Below, in pieces: positions 29,040 to 37,141 of a stretch of DNA of 64,000 nucleotides; positions within the stretch are counted from its first letter, which is position 1, and every line of letters starts with the position of its first letter. A program made the translations under genes and the position numbers. The DNA is taken from positions 62,001 through 126,000 of the forward strand of contig PBOJ01000131.1 of NCBI GenBank assembly GCA_002724315.1, given 5' to 3'. This stretch comes from Planctomycetaceae bacterium. GTDB taxonomy: Bacteria; Planctomycetota; Planctomycetia; Planctomycetales; Planctomycetaceae. The notes under the pieces were generated by a model that saw only the letters and a program-made list of their open reading frames with translations, was not told where the DNA came from and did no database searches.

Positions 29040-30314
29040 ATGCGAAACGAACCAGCCGGCCACCAGCTGGTCGCGCCCATCTCGCGCCGTGGCCTGTTGC
29101 GGAGTACGCTTGGCGGAGCCGTGGGGGCAGCGGTCGCCGGGCGATCCGTTTCGGCGGCTGATGCCGTGAAGCCTCCGCGGAAACTGCTGCTGCTGTTTCT
29201 TTCGGGTGGAGCCAGCCAACTGGAGACCTTTGATCCCAAGCCGGACTCAAAGTACGGCGGCCCGTTCCGGCCGATCGCCACGGCGATACCGGGAATCCAG
29301 GTCGGAGAATTGCTGCCTCACACCGCCAGGATCCTCGATCGGCTGGCGGTGATCCGCAGTGTCAACACGGGTGAGACCAGCCATTTTCGCGGTCACTATC
29401 TGTTGCAGTCGGGCCGCAAGGTTCCGGGATACCCGGTCCTCGGATCGGTGATGGCCCAACTGCTGGAACGCCCCGGAGACGAACTGCCCGGTTACGTGAC
29501 GATGCGTCGCCAGAACCCGCAGGCCTACACCGATGTCGGTGATGCCGGGTTCCTGGGGCCTCGTTACGAGGGCGTGATGATCATCGACGGCAAGCCGCCG
29601 GCAAACATCCGGCGACCGGAGTCGGTTGACGTGGCCGCCGTGACGACCCGTGACCGGATTCGCCGCCTGACCAACAAGCGGTTTCTCGAGCGACGGTCGC
29701 CCCGGTCGATTCAGTCCTACACCGAGAGTTACCAGAAGGCCGATGCATTGATGCGGCGACGCGAGGTATTTGATCTCGAACAGGAATCGGCCGCGGATCG
29801 TGCGAGATACGGAGATCACCATTTCGGCCGCAACTGCCTGCTGGCGCGGAGATTGCTGGAAGCGGGGGTCCATTGCGTGAAGGTGGCGCACCACGACTGG
29901 GACGCACACTTCGAGAATTTTCACTGGCAGCGTCAGCGGTGCCTGGAGTTTGACAGGACGTTCGTGACCCTGATGGATGATTTCCGCGATCGTGGGCTTC
30001 TCGACGAAACCTTGGTGGTGATCATGGGCGAGATGGGGCGTACGCCTCGGATCAACTACTACGGTGGCCGTGACCACTGGGGAGACGCCTGGTCGATGGC
30101 GTTTGCCGGATGCGGGATCAAGCCGGGAGTGGTGCTCGGCAAGACCAACGAACTGGGGACCGAGGTGACCGACGGGGCTGTGGATGCGGGGGACCTGTTC
30201 CACACGATCCTGGCCGCAATGGGACTCGATGCCAAAGGAAATCACCAGGTCGGTGGACGAGACAATCCCATTGGCGATCCCGCCTCGTCGGTGATCCAGG
30301 AGGTGTTGGCCTGA
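29040..30314 (+). CDS. DUF1501 protein, Tat-exported (paralogue 1)
   Basis: A 424-residue protein starting at the ATG at 29040 with AGGAG about 8 nt upstream. A twin-arginine leader (ISRRGLLRSTLGGAVGAAVAG) precedes the DUF1501 core: LLLLFLSGGASQLETFDPKPD, RILDRLAVIRSVNTGETSH, LARRLLEAGVHCVKV, and LDETLVVIMGEMGRTPRIN with GRDHWGDAWS. The fold is alkaline-phosphatase/sulfatase-like, but the biological role of the family is unknown. Its stop codon overlaps the start of the WD40 gene (TGATG), so it is translationally coupled to that gene and lies just after a DUF1549/1553 gene. Confidence 0.93.
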   Translation: MRNEPAGHQLVAPISRRGLLRSTLGGAVGAAVAGRSVSAADAVKPPRKLLLLFLSGGASQLETFDPKPDSKYGGPFRPIATAIPGIQVGELLPHTARILDRLAVIRSVNTGETSHFRGHYLLQSGRKVPGYPVLGSVMAQLLERPGDELPGYVTMRRQNPQAYTDVGDAGFLGPRYEGVMIIDGKPPANIRRPESVDVAAVTTRDRIRRLTNKRFLERRSPRSIQSYTESYQKADALMRRREVFDLEQESAADRARYGDHHFGRNCLLARRLLEAGVHCVKVAHHDWDAHFENFHWQRQRCLEFDRTFVTLMDDFRDRGLLDETLVVIMGEMGRTPRINYYGGRDHWGDAWSMAFAGCGIKPGVVLGKTNELGTEVTDGAVDAGDLFHTILAAMGLDAKGNHQVGGRDNPIGDPASSVIQEVLA

Positions 30315-31444
30315 TGGTGGTTGCCGAACCGAAGCTGGACCCGGCCGCCACCCGGCGGCTCCGCGAGTTTCCCCACGAAACTCCGCTGATGTCGTGCGTG
30401 GTTGATCCGACCGGCCGCTGGTGTTTTGCCGGAGGACGCAGCCGTCGGGTCTACGTCACGGATCTTGACAGCGGTGTGACCCGGTCACTGGAAGATCACG
30501 AGAGTTGGGTGGTCACGGCGACGCGATGGAGTTCACCCGGTTTGCCGGTGCGTTCTCCGGCAGCCGAACTGGCACCGCCTCCGCCACCGCAGCCGCGAGA
30601 CGTCACGCAGCCAGTGGCTGGTCCTTCCCGGCCCGTCACAGGATCTACCCAGGAATCGCTGGTGATCACCGGTGACCTGGTCGGACGACTGATCTGCTGG
30701 GAGACGCTCGGAGAATGGCCGTCGGTCCGCTGGAGCATCGAGACCGGGCACGGGACTCTGCGAACCGCCGCCGTGTCTCGTGACGGAAAATGCGTCGCCA
30801 CCGGTGGTGGCGATGGTGTGCTCCGACTCTGGTCGACCGCCGACGGAACCGCGATCCGCGAACTGACCGGTCACACCTGTCCGGTTTTCAGTACGGCGTT
30901 CCATCCCGACGGAACCCATTTGCTGTCCGGTGATCGGGGCGACCAGAAGATCCGGCAATGGGACTACGCCGCCGGGAAGTCGGTTCGAGAATTCGACGCG
31001 AAGGACCTGTCGAACTACAAGGGCGGGACGGACATCAATTACGGGGGTGTCCGTGACCTGGCCTTCACACCCGATGGAGCCATGCTCTTCTGTTGCGGAC
31101 GTGACAGTTACGCTCGCCCGGGCCTGGTGCTGCAGTTCGACTGGGAAACCGGACAGCAGGTCCGCAAGCAGGTTTCGACGTTCACCAATTCGATCTTCCA
31201 CCATCTGGTCTTTCATCCGCAGGGGTTTTACGTGACGTCCGGAGTTGGTGCGCAGACCGGAGAGATCTGGTTCTGGACACCGGAAAAAGACGAGAAACTG
31301 GCCAGCCTCAAGGTGTCTGGTCCGGCTTATGGCATGGACCTGCACCCGGATGGCCGTCACATTCTCGTCGCCCAGATGGGAGGGCCACGGACCTACGGAG
31401 ACCAGGGGATGGTCGGGCTGTACGAAATGCCCCTGGCGAAATAG
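30314..31444 (+). CDS. WD40-repeat protein coupled to a DUF1501 gene
   Basis: A 376-residue protein whose ATG at 30314 shares one base with the DUF1501 stop (TGATG). WD40-like blades are visible: MSCVVDPTGRWCFAGG, RTAAVSRDGKCVATGGGDGVLRLW (as two parts), IRELTGHTCPVFSTAFHPDG and YGMDLHPDGRHILVAQMGG. A Pro/Ala-rich loop interrupts the second blade (about residues 75-115). There is no signal peptide, so it would act in the cytoplasm unlike its exported neighbours, unless exported another way. Similar WD40 genes follow DUF1549/DUF1501 pairs in other planctomycetes; the role is unknown, possibly scaffolding. Confidence 0.82.
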   Translation: MVVAEPKLDPAATRRLREFPHETPLMSCVVDPTGRWCFAGGRSRRVYVTDLDSGVTRSLEDHESWVVTATRWSSPGLPVRSPAAELAPPPPPQPRDVTQPVAGPSRPVTGSTQESLVITGDLVGRLICWETLGEWPSVRWSIETGHGTLRTAAVSRDGKCVATGGGDGVLRLWSTADGTAIRELTGHTCPVFSTAFHPDGTHLLSGDRGDQKIRQWDYAAGKSVREFDAKDLSNYKGGTDINYGGVRDLAFTPDGAMLFCCGRDSYARPGLVLQFDWETGQQVRKQVSTFTNSIFHHLVFHPQGFYVTSGVGAQTGEIWFWTPEKDEKLASLKVSGPAYGMDLHPDGRHILVAQMGGPRTYGDQGMVGLYEMPLAK

Positions 31445-31468: not shown

Positions 31469-32557
31469 TCAATCGGCCCAGGCGTCTCGCAGGAACCTCA
31501 GCCAGTTCCCGTTGAGGATCGCCTCGGTGGCTTCGGTCGAATATCCGCGGCCGTCGAGCAATTCGATGAATCTCTGCAGATCGGCGATCGTGTCGAGATC
31601 GGCGGGAAATTCGTCGGTGCCGACGCCACCGTCCAGGTCACTGCCAATGGCGACGTGCAGGTGGTCTCCGGCCATCTGGCAGATGTGGTCGATGTGGTCG
31701 ACAGCCCTTTCGAGCATCACCCGCAGGTGCCGGTTGTCTCCAAGACATTTCCATTCGTACTGCAGTTGCCAGTTGCCGAGCGTGACGCCGATCACGCCAT
31801 CGCGGTCGAGGATGGCCTGGATCTGGCCGTCGTCGAGTTCGCGCTGATGTGGAACCAGGACGCGGCTGTTGGAGTGGCTGGCCAGGACCGGTCCCTCGTA
31901 ATGTTGCAGGCATTCCCAGAATGCCGCGTCCGAGCAGTGGGTCAGGTCGAGCGGAATGCCCAGCCGCTGCATTTCGGCCAGCAGGGGGGGGCCGAGATCG
32001 GTCAGGCCACTGGCGCTGCCGGTGCCTCCGGCGTACCGGCCTTCGGCTGAGTGCGCTGGCCCGATCAGTCTCAGGCCCCAGTTCCACCAGTCTTCGAGTT
32101 GTGCGGGGTCGAGCAGTGCGTCGGCGCACTCCATGCTGACGACCAGTCCCAGCGGAGGTGACGTCGCCGGGTCGGGGTTGTCACCGGTGTCCCATCGGGT
32201 CCACTCGGCCATGTGATCGTCGAGGGATTCGGTCGAACGGATGATCCTGGCGTGTCCCTGGCGTTCCAGGGCTTCGTAGTAGGCCAGTTGGCCTCTCGCG
32301 ACGGCGAAGGCCTGTTCGGGAGACCCGAAGTCCATATGAGGGATGAATCGTCCGGTGGTGGCGAAGGCGTGGGCGGTGGTGAAGCACAACGCCACTCGTC
32401 CACGACGCATCTCCTCCAGCGAGACGGTGCTCTTTCCCTTTCCCTTGGCCGTGTCGTGGCTTTCGCGGACCCTCGTGGTCCAGACGTTGACCAGCAGGTC
32501 ACGATTTTCCTTCAGGGCGTTCATCGCCAGGTCGAGATGTCCGTCGACAATCAGCAT
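31469..32557 (-). CDS. M19 membrane-dipeptidase-family protein
   Basis: A 362-residue peptidase M19 (renal dipeptidase) family protein. The zinc ligands are in place: His7 and Asp9 in DGHLD, Glu143 in SMECAD, His207 in LTHCSD and His228 in ASHSNSR (with Arg232), followed by the substrate-binding Asp region GSDLDGG (305-311). These enzymes hydrolyse dipeptides, including those with C-terminal D-residues. No signal peptide is seen, so the protein is probably cytoplasmic, as in many bacterial homologues. A strong hairpin at 32606-32640 separates it from the glutathione peroxidase gene upstream on the same strand. Confidence 0.92.
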   Translation of the reverse strand: MLIVDGHLDLAMNALKENRDLLVNVWTTRVRESHDTAKGKGKSTVSLEEMRRGRVALCFTTAHAFATTGRFIPHMDFGSPEQAFAVARGQLAYYEALERQGHARIIRSTESLDDHMAEWTRWDTGDNPDPATSPPLGLVVSMECADALLDPAQLEDWWNWGLRLIGPAHSAEGRYAGGTGSASGLTDLGPPLLAEMQRLGIPLDLTHCSDAAFWECLQHYEGPVLASHSNSRVLVPHQRELDDGQIQAILDRDGVIGVTLGNWQLQYEWKCLGDNRHLRVMLERAVDHIDHICQMAGDHLHVAIGSDLDGGVGTDEFPADLDTIADLQRFIELLDGRGYSTEATEAILNGNWLRFLRDAWAD

Positions 32558-32640: not shown

Positions 32641-32662
32641 GTGAGCAGAACCGGCGGTGCGG

Positions 32663-33235
32663 TTACTTTTTCTTCGCCAAAGCGCCCTCGATCAGCTTGA
32701 GCACGGCGGGATCGTTGGGCTTGGTCCGTGGACCGAAGCGGCCGATCACCTTGCCCTGACGATCGATGACGAATTTCTCGAAGTTCCACGCGACCTTGCC
32801 GGGGCCCTTGGGCTTGGCGGCCTGCTTGGTCAGGTGCTTGTAGAACGGTGCGGCGTCTTTGCCGTTGACGTTCACTTTCGAGAACATGTCAAAGCTGACT
32901 TCGTACTTCGACTTGCAGAATTCCTTGATCTCGGCGTTCGTGCCAGGCTCCTGGGCGCCGAACTGGTTACAGGGGAAGCCGAGTACCGAAAGGCCCGACT
33001 TGTTGTACTTGGTGTGCATGGCCTGCAACTGCAGGTATTGAGGGGTCAGGCCTCACTGGCTGGCCAGGTTGACCACCAGCATCACGCGTCCGTTGTACTT
33101 CTTCATGTCGACGGGTTTGCCGTCGATCGACTTCATCTTGAATTTCAGGCTCGCCGGGGGCTCGGCCGTTTGGCCAGGCACCGCCAGCATTCCGGAAAAT
33201 GCCAGCCCGACGGCCAGCAGTCCAATGTGTCTCAT
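32663..33235 (-). CDS. Exported glutathione peroxidase, predicted selenoprotein (TGA at 33055-33053 = Sec61)
   Basis: Read through one in-frame TGA, this is a single 190-residue glutathione peroxidase. A signal peptide occupies about residues 1-23 (LLAVGLAFSGMLAVPGQTA). The catalytic motif reads NLASQ-U-GLTPQY, with the TGA exactly at the peroxidatic residue. The rest of the tetrad is present: Gln95 in FGAQEPG, Trp150 and Asn151 in VAWNFEKF; FPCNQFG is also intact. Cys107 (EFCKSKY) could be a resolving cysteine, suggesting thioredoxin-type recycling. Both halves are intact family sequence in the same frame, with no other stop, which argues against decay. The ATG at 33235 has AGGA 9 nt upstream. 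It would reduce peroxides outside the cytoplasm. Incorporation requires selA-selD, not visible in this window; a Cys-to-TGA sequencing error is the main alternative. Confidence 0.85.
33022..33035 (-). promoter_or_regulatory. Candidate bacterial SECIS hairpin
   Basis: On the minus strand the 14-nt inverted repeat CCTGCAGTTGCAGG begins 17 nt after the TGA. It folds as CCUGC/GCAGG (an extra A-U pair is possible) around an AGUU loop; the loop starts 22 nt after the UGA. Known bacterial SECIS elements place a small stem-loop with a conserved G, often GU, at the tip about 16-37 nt downstream of UGA for SelB binding. An alternative longer stem pairs GGCCTG (33052-33047) with CAGGCC (33025-33020). 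The folding was done by eye. Confidence 0.6.
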
Positions 33236-33526
33236 CGATAAATGTCCTGATCAGAGAAGGGGGGGCATGTTTCAACTCCGGGCAAGCTACTTCACCGTGA
33301 AACGAATCGCAACTGCAGTCACGGTTTGACAGTGCGGCTTGACCCGTACACGATGCGGGCCAGCAGGTCCGTGTCCGGAGTCCATCGATGTCTGGCAGGC
33401 CCGTGACAGGAACTGATCGCCGAAAATGTCTGGTGGGCCTGGCGACAGTGGCCGGGTCGCAGCTGGTCCGGTTGCCGGCGGCCCCGGTGCGTCGAGGGAA
33501 TTCGCGGATCTGGCAACCGCGATAGC
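33236..33526. other. Intergenic region upstream of the glutathione peroxidase gene
   Basis: About 290 nt between the peroxidase start and the stop of the next minus-strand gene. It must contain the peroxidase promoter. An 11-nt near-palindrome TTCACCGTGAA lies at about 33291-33301, some 55 nt before the start codon, and could be an operator. The left end of the region holds no recognisable gene; the right end holds the short Tat-like ORF listed separately. Confidence 0.4.
33388..33525 (+). pseudogene. 45-codon ORF resembling an orphan Tat leader
   Basis: ATG to TAG, 45 codons. The N-terminal part TDRRKCLVGLATVAG followed by SQLVRLPAAP looks like a twin-arginine leader of the type found on the surrounding DUF1501/1552 proteins, but the frame stops soon after and no mature domain follows. 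It may be the truncated 5' end of a lost exported protein or a chance resemblance. It ends 2 nt before the stop of the convergent DUF1501 gene. Confidence 0.25.
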
Positions 33527-34975
33527 TCAGAACAACTCGAGTACCGGTTGGCCATCGGAGATCCGGACGGGCCGTCCGGTTTCGTCGGGCACCGCGGCTT
33601 CGGGTTTCAGGCCGAAGGCGTGCAGGATCGTGGCCTGGAAGTCGTAGACGCTGACGGGCAGGTCACGGACGTAGGCGGCCAGGTTGTCGCTGGCGCCGTG
33701 GATCCGGCCTCCCTGAATGCCGCCCCCGGCCAGCACGGACGAATAGCACGCTCCCCAGTGGTCGCGGCCGGTGAACTTGTTGATCGTGGGCGTGCGTCCA
33801 AACTCTCCCACCACCGTCACCAGGGTGTCCTCGAGCAGGCCACGCTCCTCGAGATCCGTCAGCAAGGTCGAGAAAGCTGCGTCGAAAGACGGAAGGCAGT
33901 ACTTGTGGCTGAGCATCTCTTTGCCACGATTCACTCCACCACAGACAGTCGTCTTCTTGTCTGTCCCGTGGTTGTCCCAGAGGTTGAACTGGCAACCGTC
34001 GGGACCGTAGTAGGTCCAGAACACGTTGACCATCCGCACGTCGCGTTCGACAAGGCGACGGGCCAGCAGGAAGCTCTGGCCGTACTCGTTCATTCCGTAT
34101 TGTTCGCGCAACGACATCGACTCGTCGGTGACATCGAATGCCTCACGAAACGCCTTCGACGTCAGCATCTCGATCGCCTTGTCGTACTGTTGCTGATAGG
34201 CCAGTACCGCCCCGTCGACTCCGACCCGTTGTGGGCCGACGCGTTCCAGCAGCGAGCGGCGGGCGTCGAGCCGTGCGATCGTCATCTGCTCGCCGTGCAG
34301 TTCCAAGTTCTTCAGCGTGAACTCGTTCCGCTCCAGTGACCCGGTCTTCTCGGTTCCGAGGCTCAGTGGTTCGAATCGCGGTCCCAGGAACCCGGCCCGC
34401 TGGCCCTTGTAGAAACGTGTGCCGGTGGTGAAGTGGCGCGGAACCACGACCCATGGCGGCAGGTTTCCCGAGGGGCCCAGCAGCTTGTGCAGGATGGCGC
34501 CGATGGCCGGGTGGTCGTCTGGCGACACCGGGTAGGCCTTGTTCTTCTTGGTGGCCAGGAGGCTGGCCATCAGCGTGCGGTAGATGCCGGTGTCGTGTGA
34601 CTGGGTGTCGACGTTCATCGAGCGAATGATGGCCAGCTTGTCGGCGTGAGGAGCCACCTTCGGCAGCAGGGCGCCGAAGCGAGTGCCGGGAACACTGGTC
34701 GCAATGTCACCGAACTGGCCCCGAATACGGGCCGGTGCGTCGGGCTTGGGGTCCCACATGTCCAACTGGGAAGGACCACCGCACAGAAAGATGTAGATCG
34801 ATCGCTTGGCCGTTGCCGCATGACGTGTGGCGTCGATCGGCTGGGGCGATGTGTTGGCGGCGGAGAGGATCTGGGGCAGGGTCATTCCCAGACCGCCGAC
34901 GGTGCCCAGACGCAGCGCGTCACGGCGAGTGAATTCGCCGTGACCCGGGACGTGCATGGGCATCAGATTGAGCAT
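33527..34975 (-). CDS. DUF1501 protein, Tat-exported (paralogue 2)
   Basis: A 482-residue protein starting at the ATG at 34975, with AGAAG about 5-8 nt upstream; the frame is open further upstream but unlike a leader. A twin-arginine signal (FTRRDALRLGTVGGLGM) is followed by DUF1501 motifs IYIFLCGGPSQLDMWDPKPDA, KLAIIRSMNVDTQSHD, LARRLVERDVRMVNVFW and LEDTLVTVVGEFGRTPTIN with GRDHWGACYS. It is divergent from the DUF1549/1553 gene at 35231, with a shared intergenic region of about 255 nt, so the two may be co-regulated even though not co-transcribed. The role of the family is unknown. Confidence 0.92.
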   Translation of the reverse strand: MLNLMPMHVPGHGEFTRRDALRLGTVGGLGMTLPQILSAANTSPQPIDATRHAATAKRSIYIFLCGGPSQLDMWDPKPDAPARIRGQFGDIATSVPGTRFGALLPKVAPHADKLAIIRSMNVDTQSHDTGIYRTLMASLLATKKNKAYPVSPDDHPAIGAILHKLLGPSGNLPPWVVVPRHFTTGTRFYKGQRAGFLGPRFEPLSLGTEKTGSLERNEFTLKNLELHGEQMTIARLDARRSLLERVGPQRVGVDGAVLAYQQQYDKAIEMLTSKAFREAFDVTDESMSLREQYGMNEYGQSFLLARRLVERDVRMVNVFWTYYGPDGCQFNLWDNHGTDKKTTVCGGVNRGKEMLSHKYCLPSFDAAFSTLLTDLEERGLLEDTLVTVVGEFGRTPTINKFTGRDHWGACYSSVLAGGGIQGGRIHGASDNLAAYVRDLPVSVYDFQATILHAFGLKPEAAVPDETGRPVRISDGQPVLELF

Positions 34976-35230
34976 CGTTCTTCTCGCCGGTTGTTCGAAA
35001 CGACAGTATAACCGCATTCTCACACCATCGGGAACACTGTCCCTCCGGACGGGGGCTGAAATGGCTGAAGTGTACGTCGTGGCGGGAACACTTCGGCGGC
35101 GAGCCCACATACGCGACAGGTCGGGCCTGTTTCAAAACTCTCCTTTCAATCCGGACGGTCTTGGCTCGGAAAAATCCTGTATCATGCTGGTCGCCAACCG
35201 TCAGGAAATCTTGGGAATGACGCACACGTG

Positions 35231-37141
35231 ATGAACCGACACCTGGGACGTCTGCTGGTTTTGCTCGCCGGGTTGGCGGTGGCCGGGAAACTGGCTGCCG
35301 ATGAGCCCGCGGCCACCTCGTTCCCGCGGACACGAATCTCCGAAGACGAGCGAGACCACTGGTCGTTTCGCCGGTTGAATCCGGGGCGGGTGCCGGCGGC
35401 CGGCAAGTCCCGATGGGGCCGCAACCCGATCGATCGGTTCATCCTGGCACGGCTGGACGAAAACGGCCTGGTGCCCTCTGGCCGGGCGTCACGACGGATC
35501 CTGGTTCGTCGCGCCCATTTTTCTTTGCTCGGCGTGCCGCCGTCTCCGGAGGTGATCGGGCAACACGAAACCGATCGGTCTCCGTCGGCCTGGAGTGACC
35601 TGGTGGACCGGATGCTCGCTTCGCCGCACTACGGTCAGCGATGGGCACGTCACTGGATGGACGTGGCCCGGTTTGCCGAGAGTGGAGGATTCGAGCATGA
35701 CGACGATCGTCCGACGGCCTTCCACTACCGGGATTTCCTCGTCGCGGCCTTCAATCGCGACATGCCGTTTGATCGCTTCGTCGCCTGGCAGCTTGCCGGT
35801 GACGAACTGGCTCCGAAGGATCCACTGGCCCTGATGGCAACCGGATTTCTGGGGGCCGGAGTGTTCCCCAGCCAGTTGACCGAAGCGGAGTTCGAGTCAT
35901 CCCGGTACGACGAACTTGACGATATGGTCACCACCACCGGGGTCGCCTTCCTGGGGCTTTCGATCGGCTGCGCACGGTGTCATGACCACAAGTACGACCC
36001 GATCCCCTCCCAGGACTACTACCGACTGGCGTCGGCCTTCACGACGACAATTCGCGGCGAGGTGACCACTCGGGCGCCGTGGCACTCCACCGACCAGAAA
36101 GTGCTGGTCACCAGCGAGGGCCTTCCCAAGCTCAAGCACCATGCCGACAGCCGCGGGTTCCCTCACTTCTACCAGCAGACGTTCTTCCTTGCCCGTGGCG
36201 ACGTTCACCAGAAACACGGTGCCGCCGATACGGGGTATCTCCAGGTGCTGGTGCGTCCCGGCACCAGCACTTCGCATTGGCAAGTGAAGCCTCCAGCGGA
36301 CAGGAAGCGGACCTCGTTTCGTCGCGCGTCACTGGCTCGCTGGATGACCGATACCGAACGCGGAGCCGGGCACCTGTTGGCCAGGGTCATTGTCAATCGC
36401 CTCTGGCACCATCACTTCGGTCGTGGCCTGGTTGCTTCTCCCAACGACTTCGGGACCCAGGGCGAGCATCCCACCCACCCGAAACTTCTCGATTGGCTGG
36501 CCCAGAGATTGCTTGATTGCGGTTGGCGGCTGAAGCCGATTCATCGGTTGCTGTTGACCAGCAGTGTCTACTGCCAGAACGGTCGTGCCGATGGCAACCG
36601 TCAGGACCGAGATCTCGAGAACCGGTTCTGGTCGCATCGACCGCGAAGGCGGCTCGAGGCCGAGGCGATCCGAGACGCCTTGCTGAGCGTCTCGGGACGA
36701 CTGGATTCCGGAATGTACGGCCCGGGTTCGCTCGACGAAAACTCCCGGCGTCGCAGCGTTTTCCTGAAGGTCAAGCGGAGCCGGCTGGTGCCCACGATGA
36801 TGCTGTTCGACTGGCCCGAACACCTTGTCAGCATCGGTCGCCGAGCCAACACGACTACCGCCGCTCAGGCCCTGGCTTTCATGAACAGTCCGGTAGGTCG
36901 CGGATACGCCGGGAGCCTGGCTGAACGGTTGCCGGCCGATCCTGGTCGGGCGATCGTCCGTGCCTGGCAACTGGCGCTGGGGCGGACGCCGCGGGCTGAC
37001 GAACAGGCTGCGGTGATGGTGTTCCTGGAACGGCAGGAACACATCTACCGGAGGGCGGGGCGGTCCGACCCGATTCGGACGGCGCGGGTCGATTTGTGCC
37101 AGGCGCTTTTGGGGATGAACGAGTTCATTTACGTTGACTGA
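35231..37141 (+). CDS. DUF1549/DUF1553 (PSCyt2/PSD1) protein
   Basis: A 636-residue exported protein; the ATG at 35231 follows an in-frame GTG, and either could start. The leader is LLVLLAGLAVAGKLAA. DUF1549 begins near residue 64 (NPIDRFILARLDENGL) and contains YGQRWARHWMDVARFAES, the QLAGDEL motif and CARCH at 247-251 within CARCHDHKYDPI. DUF1553 follows from about 365 ([32 protein letters not shown]). No PSCyt1 (N-terminal CxxCH) domain is present. It forms a likely two-gene operon with the DUF1501 gene 40 nt downstream, the standard planctomycete arrangement. A heme site is suggested by CxxCH but not proven for the family. Confidence 0.92.
   Translation: MNRHLGRLLVLLAGLAVAGKLAADEPAATSFPRTRISEDERDHWSFRRLNPGRVPAAGKSRWGRNPIDRFILARLDENGLVPSGRASRRILVRRAHFSLLGVPPSPEVIGQHETDRSPSAWSDLVDRMLASPHYGQRWARHWMDVARFAESGGFEHDDDRPTAFHYRDFLVAAFNRDMPFDRFVAWQLAGDELAPKDPLALMATGFLGAGVFPSQLTEAEFESSRYDELDDMVTTTGVAFLGLSIGCARCHDHKYDPIPSQDYYRLASAFTTTIRGEVTTRAPWHSTDQKVLVTSEGLPKLKHHADSRGFPHFYQQTFFLARGDVHQKHGAADTGYLQVLVRPGTSTSHWQVKPPADRKRTSFRRASLARWMTDTERGAGHLLARVIVNRLWHHHFGRGLVASPNDFGTQGEHPTHPKLLDWLAQRLLDCGWRLKPIHRLLLTSSVYCQNGRADGNRQDRDLENRFWSHRPRRRLEAEAIRDALLSVSGRLDSGMYGPGSLDENSRRRSVFLKVKRSRLVPTMMLFDWPEHLVSIGRRANTTTAAQALAFMNSPVGRGYAGSLAERLPADPGRAIVRAWQLALGRTPRADEQAAVMVFLERQEHIYRRAGRSDPIRTARVDLCQALLGMNEFIYVD

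Follow-up and report, generated by a model that had tools for sequence, protein, structure and literature searches.

We found that a gene on the reverse strand of the window, the whole 64,000-nucleotide stretch of DNA that was analyzed, very probably encodes a GPX4-like glutathione peroxidase (GPx) with selenocysteine (Sec) as its peroxidatic residue, a reading to which we assign a probability of about 95% from sequence comparison. An earlier note on this DNA had proposed the Sec reading, and it is supported by the selenocysteine genes of the same genome, by homologues with Cys at the codon in question, and by a hairpin confined to those genes that carry TGA there. Translation of the reverse strand gave 60 codons, the TGA, 129 further codons, and a terminal TAA, with zero other stops. 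The two halves flanking the TGA are thus intact in a single frame, as the note had claimed, with codon 61 as the sole interruption, and alignment with homologues confirmed that this codon falls on the peroxidatic residue of the family. Standard gene calling would break up or miss such a gene. Because such a gene would be split or dropped, the use of selenium by marine planctomycetes may be undercounted. An antisense open frame of 194 codons (window positions 32657-33241, forward strand) spans the whole GPx gene; in this GC-rich DNA, it is probably mechanical.

Table 1. Coordinates of the GPx gene, its predicted elements, and the neighboring genes in the window
Feature	Position	Strand	Remarks
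Sec-glutathione peroxidase gene (predicted)	32663..33235	(-)	190 codons; ATG 33235-33233, TAA 32665-32663, one in-frame TGA
Probable signal peptide, residues 1-24 (MRHIGLLAVGLAFSGMLAVPGQTA)	33164..33235	(-)	judged by eye
TGA, predicted Sec61, peroxidatic residue	33053..33055	(-)	aligns with Cys in 102 homologues and with TGA in 8 further genes (all distinct)
Predicted SECIS hairpin CCUGC-AGUU-GCAGG	33022..33035	(-)	nucleotides 18-31 past the UGA, with the loop at 22 nt
Cys89 (FPCNQFG), not conserved	32969..32971	(-)	Cys in 7/9 Sec and 44/102 Cys homologues
Gln95, GPx tetrad	32951..32953	(-)	Gln in 6/9 Sec genes (Phe in 3 paralogues) and 102/102 Cys genes
Cys107, candidate resolving cysteine	32915..32917	(-)	Cys in 9/9 Sec and 102/102 Cys genes
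Trp150-Asn151, GPx tetrad	32783..32788	(-)	kept in 9/9 Sec and 102/102 Cys genes
WD40 protein	30110-31444	(+)	neighbor scan
M19 dipeptidase	31469-32557	(-)	neighbor scan
DUF1501 protein	33527-35110	(-)	neighbor scan
PSCyt2/PSD1 protein	35228-37141	(+)	neighbor scan

Family membership was assessed on the read-through protein with Cys substituted for Sec at residue 61. The protein matched Pfam GSHPx at 146.8 bits (cut-off 27) and stayed below the curated cut-offs of the NCBIfam equivalogs PRK10606 (191.4 vs. 270) and Gpx7 (132 vs. 207.3). Its AlphaFold model had a mean pLDDT of 89.1, with residues 1-23 below 50, and the best Foldseek matches in the PDB were Schistosoma GPx (2v1m and 2wgr) and human GPX4. 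The TM-score against 2v1m was 0.80 by query and 0.93 by target, which indicates a GPx fold, and in the Foldseek alignments, the domain was 45-49% identical to that of human GPX4 and Schistosoma mansoni GPx. The GPx tetrad is complete (Sec61, Gln95, Trp150, and Asn151), and translation placed Gln95, Trp150, and Asn151, as well as Cys89 and Cys107, exactly where the note had them.

We compared the gene by tblastn with 135 submitted loci, 117 of which gave a match. Codon 61 was TGC in 86 of these, TGT in 18, and TGA in 13. Stops elsewhere in the frame of homologues had been named in advance as grounds for abandoning the Sec reading; the aligned frame held none in any of the 117 loci (104 Cys and 13 TGA). 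Four of the TGA loci were duplicates, leaving nine distinct TGA genes: the window gene; those of G001 (the same as RS383, L052), G011 (the same as NP87, L053), SP141 (L054), RS398 (L055), and SI074_bin7 (L056); and paralogues in the source genome (G000, contig C90), G002, and G011. The eight others shared 45-91% identity with the window gene and had the same single TGA, and all 102 distinct non-TGA homologues had Cys at residue 61. In a wider family survey of 170 genomes, 150 had a match at an E value of 1e-30 or better; among the matches listed, TGA occurred inside the GPx genes of G000 (two genes), G001, G002, and G011 (two genes). Two survey entries with TAA or TAG were examined (L139 and L140), and both had Cys at residue 61 and a stop-free tblastn-aligned frame.

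On this comparison, the codons past the TGA are under purifying selection. Downstream of the TGA, dN/dS for the window gene was ∼0.05, 0.11, and 0.12 against L023, L024, and L055 (dN and dS of 0.024/0.47, 0.106/1.00, and 0.183/1.49, with dS of at least 1 and therefore near saturation for the latter two). The 36 codons compared upstream gave dN and dS of 0.055/0.42, 0.075/0.69, and 0.210/1.32 against the same three loci.

The 14-mer CCUGCAGUUGCAGG, whose AGUU loop lies 22 nt past the UGA, is identical in all nine TGA genes and absent from all 102 Cys genes. Elsewhere in codons 28-186, no stretch of more than 5 nt is invariant among the nine genes. Third positions tell the same story: of the 159 codons compared among the nine TGA genes, 13 have an invariant third position, and five of these 13 lie in codons 67-71. 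Nine near Cys genes taken as a control had five invariant third positions and zero at codons 67-71. At the protein level, Leu68 is present in 9/9 Sec proteins and 0/102 Cys proteins, and Gln69 is present in 9/9 and 25/102, respectively. Codon 70 is TTG in all nine genes, a less used Leu codon that accounts for 270 of the 1817 Leu codons counted in the window. The hairpin is thus frozen within the coding sequence and tied to a Leu-Gln pair where the Cys homologues vary, a clear natural case of an RNA signal that overrides the protein sequence.

Published rules for bacterial SECIS (bSECIS) elements, in the available text of a 2026 review, call for a stem of 4-16 bp, a loop of 3-9 nt with G among its first two positions, a distance of 16-37 nt from the UGA, and an energy of -7.5 kcal/mol or lower (PMC13188914). 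The window hairpin fits this model with 5 bp, the AGUU loop, and 22 nt; its energy was -7.9 kcal/mol in a 40-nt context and -6.8 kcal/mol bare, so the energy rule is satisfied in context only. A SECIS-rule hairpin at least as stable as the bare window hairpin occurred in 3/102 Cys genes. No significant z score came from plain folding of stretches of 51-71 nt past the UGA (1.03, -0.73, and -1.68, with the last matched by 11 of 200 shuffles). For Escherichia coli fdhF, we take the pairing after the UGA to be UUGC-AGGUCU-GCA; the folding program gave another pairing.

We then turn to the machinery that would read this signal. The source genome (5.69 Mb in 175 contigs, 91.8% complete, 3.0% contamination) encodes all four components whose search the earlier note had suggested (selA, selB, selC, and selD). 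The tRNA-Sec scored 75.5 bits (Rfam cut-off 47) and was called tRNA-SeC with anticodon tca by ARAGORN; SelB, which adjoins SelA, scored 336.7 bits including its in-frame neighbors; and SelA and SelD scored 485.4 and 336.6 bits. The same cut-offs were also passed within a set of 14 control genomes, by tRNA-Sec in five, SelB in two, SelD in two, and SelA in one. SelA of the source genome is 96, 82, and 79% identical to that of its relatives G002, G001, and G011, and the N-terminal part of SelB is 98, 93, and 88% identical; this high identity argues that the sel genes are native rather than stray contigs. SelA exceeded its cut-off in seven of the eight genomes with a TGA-GPx (G000, G001, G002, G011, and the genomes of L054-L056). 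It did so as well in 51 of 99 relatives, and a TGA-GPx was seen in only four of those genomes; the presence of SelA is thus by itself weak evidence.

SelD of the source genome has an in-frame TGA of its own and is a selenoprotein candidate (G000:C25:21123-22043, forward strand, L142), with the TGA within SCAG-U-AGK. The hairpin after it, CCCC-AGGA-GGGG, differs from the GPx 14-mer. Since the two differ within one genome, the conservation of the GPx 14-mer partly reflects common descent, and the nine TGA genes amount to fewer than nine independent observations.

From inspection of its N terminus by eye, the window GPx is likely exported; the five other Sec homologues of the main group also have a hydrophobic N terminus. 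In the mechanism that we propose, SelB and Sec-tRNA-Sec would recognize the hairpin formed by nucleotides 18-31 past the UGA and decode this codon as Sec61; were selenium or SelB in short supply, translation would stop after codon 60, leaving a product without the catalytic residue. In the GPx family, a Sec combined with the tetrad implies peroxide reduction. Outside the cytoplasm, Sec61 together with Gln95, Trp150, and Asn151 would reduce hydrogen peroxide or lipid hydroperoxides and, as in the family at large, would itself become a selenenic acid. Cys107, to judge by its position and conservation, may then attack this selenenic acid to form a selenenylsulfide, which an extracytoplasmic partner with a thioredoxin fold could reopen. 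None of the four neighbors scanned in the window (Table 1) was a candidate for this redox partner.

Several other explanations of the interrupted frame were weighed. A Cys codon could have turned into TGA by mutation or assembly error, leaving the gene split or dead: the sequence comes from a single draft assembly in 175 contigs, and TGC or TGT is one base away from TGA. We consider this very improbable, however, given that the same TGA recurs in other genomes, in genes that share as little as 45% protein identity, that downstream dN/dS is 0.05-0.12, and that the hairpin is retained. Equally improbable is that the locus makes two products, a short secreted peptide of 60 amino acids and the protein of a downstream 121-codon ORF beginning at TTG. 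Such ORFs do exist mechanically, but the downstream one has neither the catalytic residue nor the opening strands of the fold, and coding constraint crosses the TGA in one frame. The least probable of all is that UGA is reassigned or generally suppressed, for example as Trp or Gly. The frame would be open if UGA stood for any residue; against this, TGA terminates 21 of 31 ORFs in the window that run to 300 codons or more (mechanically chosen and nearly nonoverlapping), the genome holds the complete Sec machinery, and the hairpin and the alignment with Cys are specific to codon 61.

A further alternative concerns mechanism and leaves the insertion of Sec unaffected: the enzyme might be a one-residue peroxidase that uses glutathione or another low-molecular thiol, like vertebrate GPX4, with Cys107 as an unused ancestral residue. 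Human GPX4 is among the closest solved structures by fold, and Cys107 does look ancestral, being common to all 102 distinct Cys homologues, so its retention may be inertia. Yet it is also kept in all nine Sec genes, including paralogues that alter Gln95 and, twice, Cys89, and in the same column human GPX4 has Ala and Schistosoma GPx has Val. A second Cys in this column or beside it, moreover, marks the two-thiol GPx-like enzymes, which work with a peroxidatic and a resolving Cys (available text of PMC8614756 and PMC9404953). Because Cys107 is universal here, is replaced by Ala or Val in those two enzymes, and has this counterpart in two-thiol enzymes, we favor the Sec61-Cys107 selenenylsulfide and regard the one-residue enzyme as unlikely, though well short of negligible. 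We consider resolution of the Sec61 selenenic acid by Cys107 somewhat more likely than not. Related Sec and Cys enzymes that both have the resolving Cys would offer material for asking what selenium adds.

The source genome has a second TGA-GPx (G000:C90:20730-21230, reverse strand, L136) with the same hairpin. This paralogue has Phe in place of Gln95 and Thr in place of Cys89, and it keeps Cys107, Trp, and Asn; its N terminus has a Gly-Cys that by eye may belong to a lipobox. The paralogue is also present in G002 and G011, and the G011 copy retains Cys89. A tree of 95 sequences (nine Sec and 86 Cys), built by a quick method with residues 61 and 67-71 masked and with Cys sequences below 46% identity left out beforehand, needs one change between Sec and Cys, on a branch without support. 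Taken as a whole, the picture of an extracytoplasmic, glutathione-independent Sec61-Cys107 enzyme beside a probably lipid-anchored, Gln-less Sec paralogue of altered chemistry is tentative, and we rate it at less than even odds. If it is true, the Gln-less Sec proteins would form a subfamily acting, for example, as selenol-based disulfide or sulfenic-acid reductases.

We also scanned for the combination of TGA and hairpin directly. The exact pattern gave seven matches in five of the 397 genomes of the class, and six of the seven were GPx genes; a reversed control gave at least two matches. The match in G210 was rejected as chance, with stops throughout. When the source genome was searched more loosely for the hairpin behind other TGA codons, nine matches appeared vs. 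11 in the reversed control: two were exact, both of them GPx genes, and seven had one mismatch. Of the latter, four had an intact TGA, none in a convincing frame, and they too were rejected. In G420, a member of another family, we found a new Sec-GPx gene (G420:C11:221335-221368, reverse strand, L202) that reads ...NLASR-U-GLTPQYLQLQ... and has an export-like N terminus; since it was located via the hairpin, it is not counted as hairpin evidence. In this genome (99% complete), SelA remained below its cut-off (best 46.9 bits vs. 267.9), and the 19 kb around the GPx gene held no match to SelA, the SelB part, or SelD of the source genome and no tRNA.

Sec-containing GPx enzymes are already on record in bacteria. 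The available texts report a selenoprotein GPx in Treponema denticola (PMC1794560), five Sec-GPx sequences with a UxxT motif in the Sargasso Sea (PMC1088965), and 40 Sec-GPx in Global Ocean Sampling data (PMC2398784), and the 2026 review lists bacterial Sec-GPx as "predicted with high confidence" (PMC13188914). The window gene resembles this family in its peroxidatic Sec, in a U-G-L-T sequence that fits UxxT, and in a predicted SECIS element just after the UGA, and it shares a marine setting with the Sargasso Sea and Global Ocean Sampling sequences. It differs, as far as the available published descriptions go, in its occurrence in planctomycete genomes that also carry sel genes. An export signal, a resolving Cys, and a second paralogue receive no mention in the available text of these four sources, and a term search of the review found "signal peptide," "periplasm," and "secreted" absent. 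Among planctomycetes, P1 and P2 from Porphyra have selenoproteins and complete Sec-insertion genes (available text of PMC4807772); the phrase "glutathione peroxidase" is absent from the main text of that paper, whose candidate list sits in the supplement. A term search of PMC12013277 returned no GPx, glutathione peroxidase, or planctomyc-, and a paper on planctomycete Sec-GPx was not found among the top matches in the open-access literature, a scope that leaves out most subscription journals.

Individual enzymes offer a closer comparison. Human GPX4 is likewise a Sec enzyme, but neither it nor Schistosoma GPx has a Cys that aligns with Cys107, and both carry one additional residue a little past the Sec or Cys. 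Among two-cysteine GPx-like enzymes that use thioredoxin, the second Cys of 6vpd Trgpx is in register with Cys107, and that of poplar GPX5 lies one residue along; unlike the window protein, poplar GPX5 and the bacterial Cys-GPx enzymes have Cys, not Sec, as the peroxidatic residue. Yeast Hyr1/Gpx3 belongs to the same thioredoxin-using group. The earlier note had called an exported bacterial Sec-GPx with a possible resolving Cys unusual. That holds only in part: Sec-GPx is already catalogued in bacteria and Cys107 is apparently ancestral, but the pairing of Sec with Cys107 is uncommon. Sec-GPx is an established bacterial family, and the combination of Sec with a conserved candidate resolving Cys and the Gln-less Sec paralogue are the notable features seen here.
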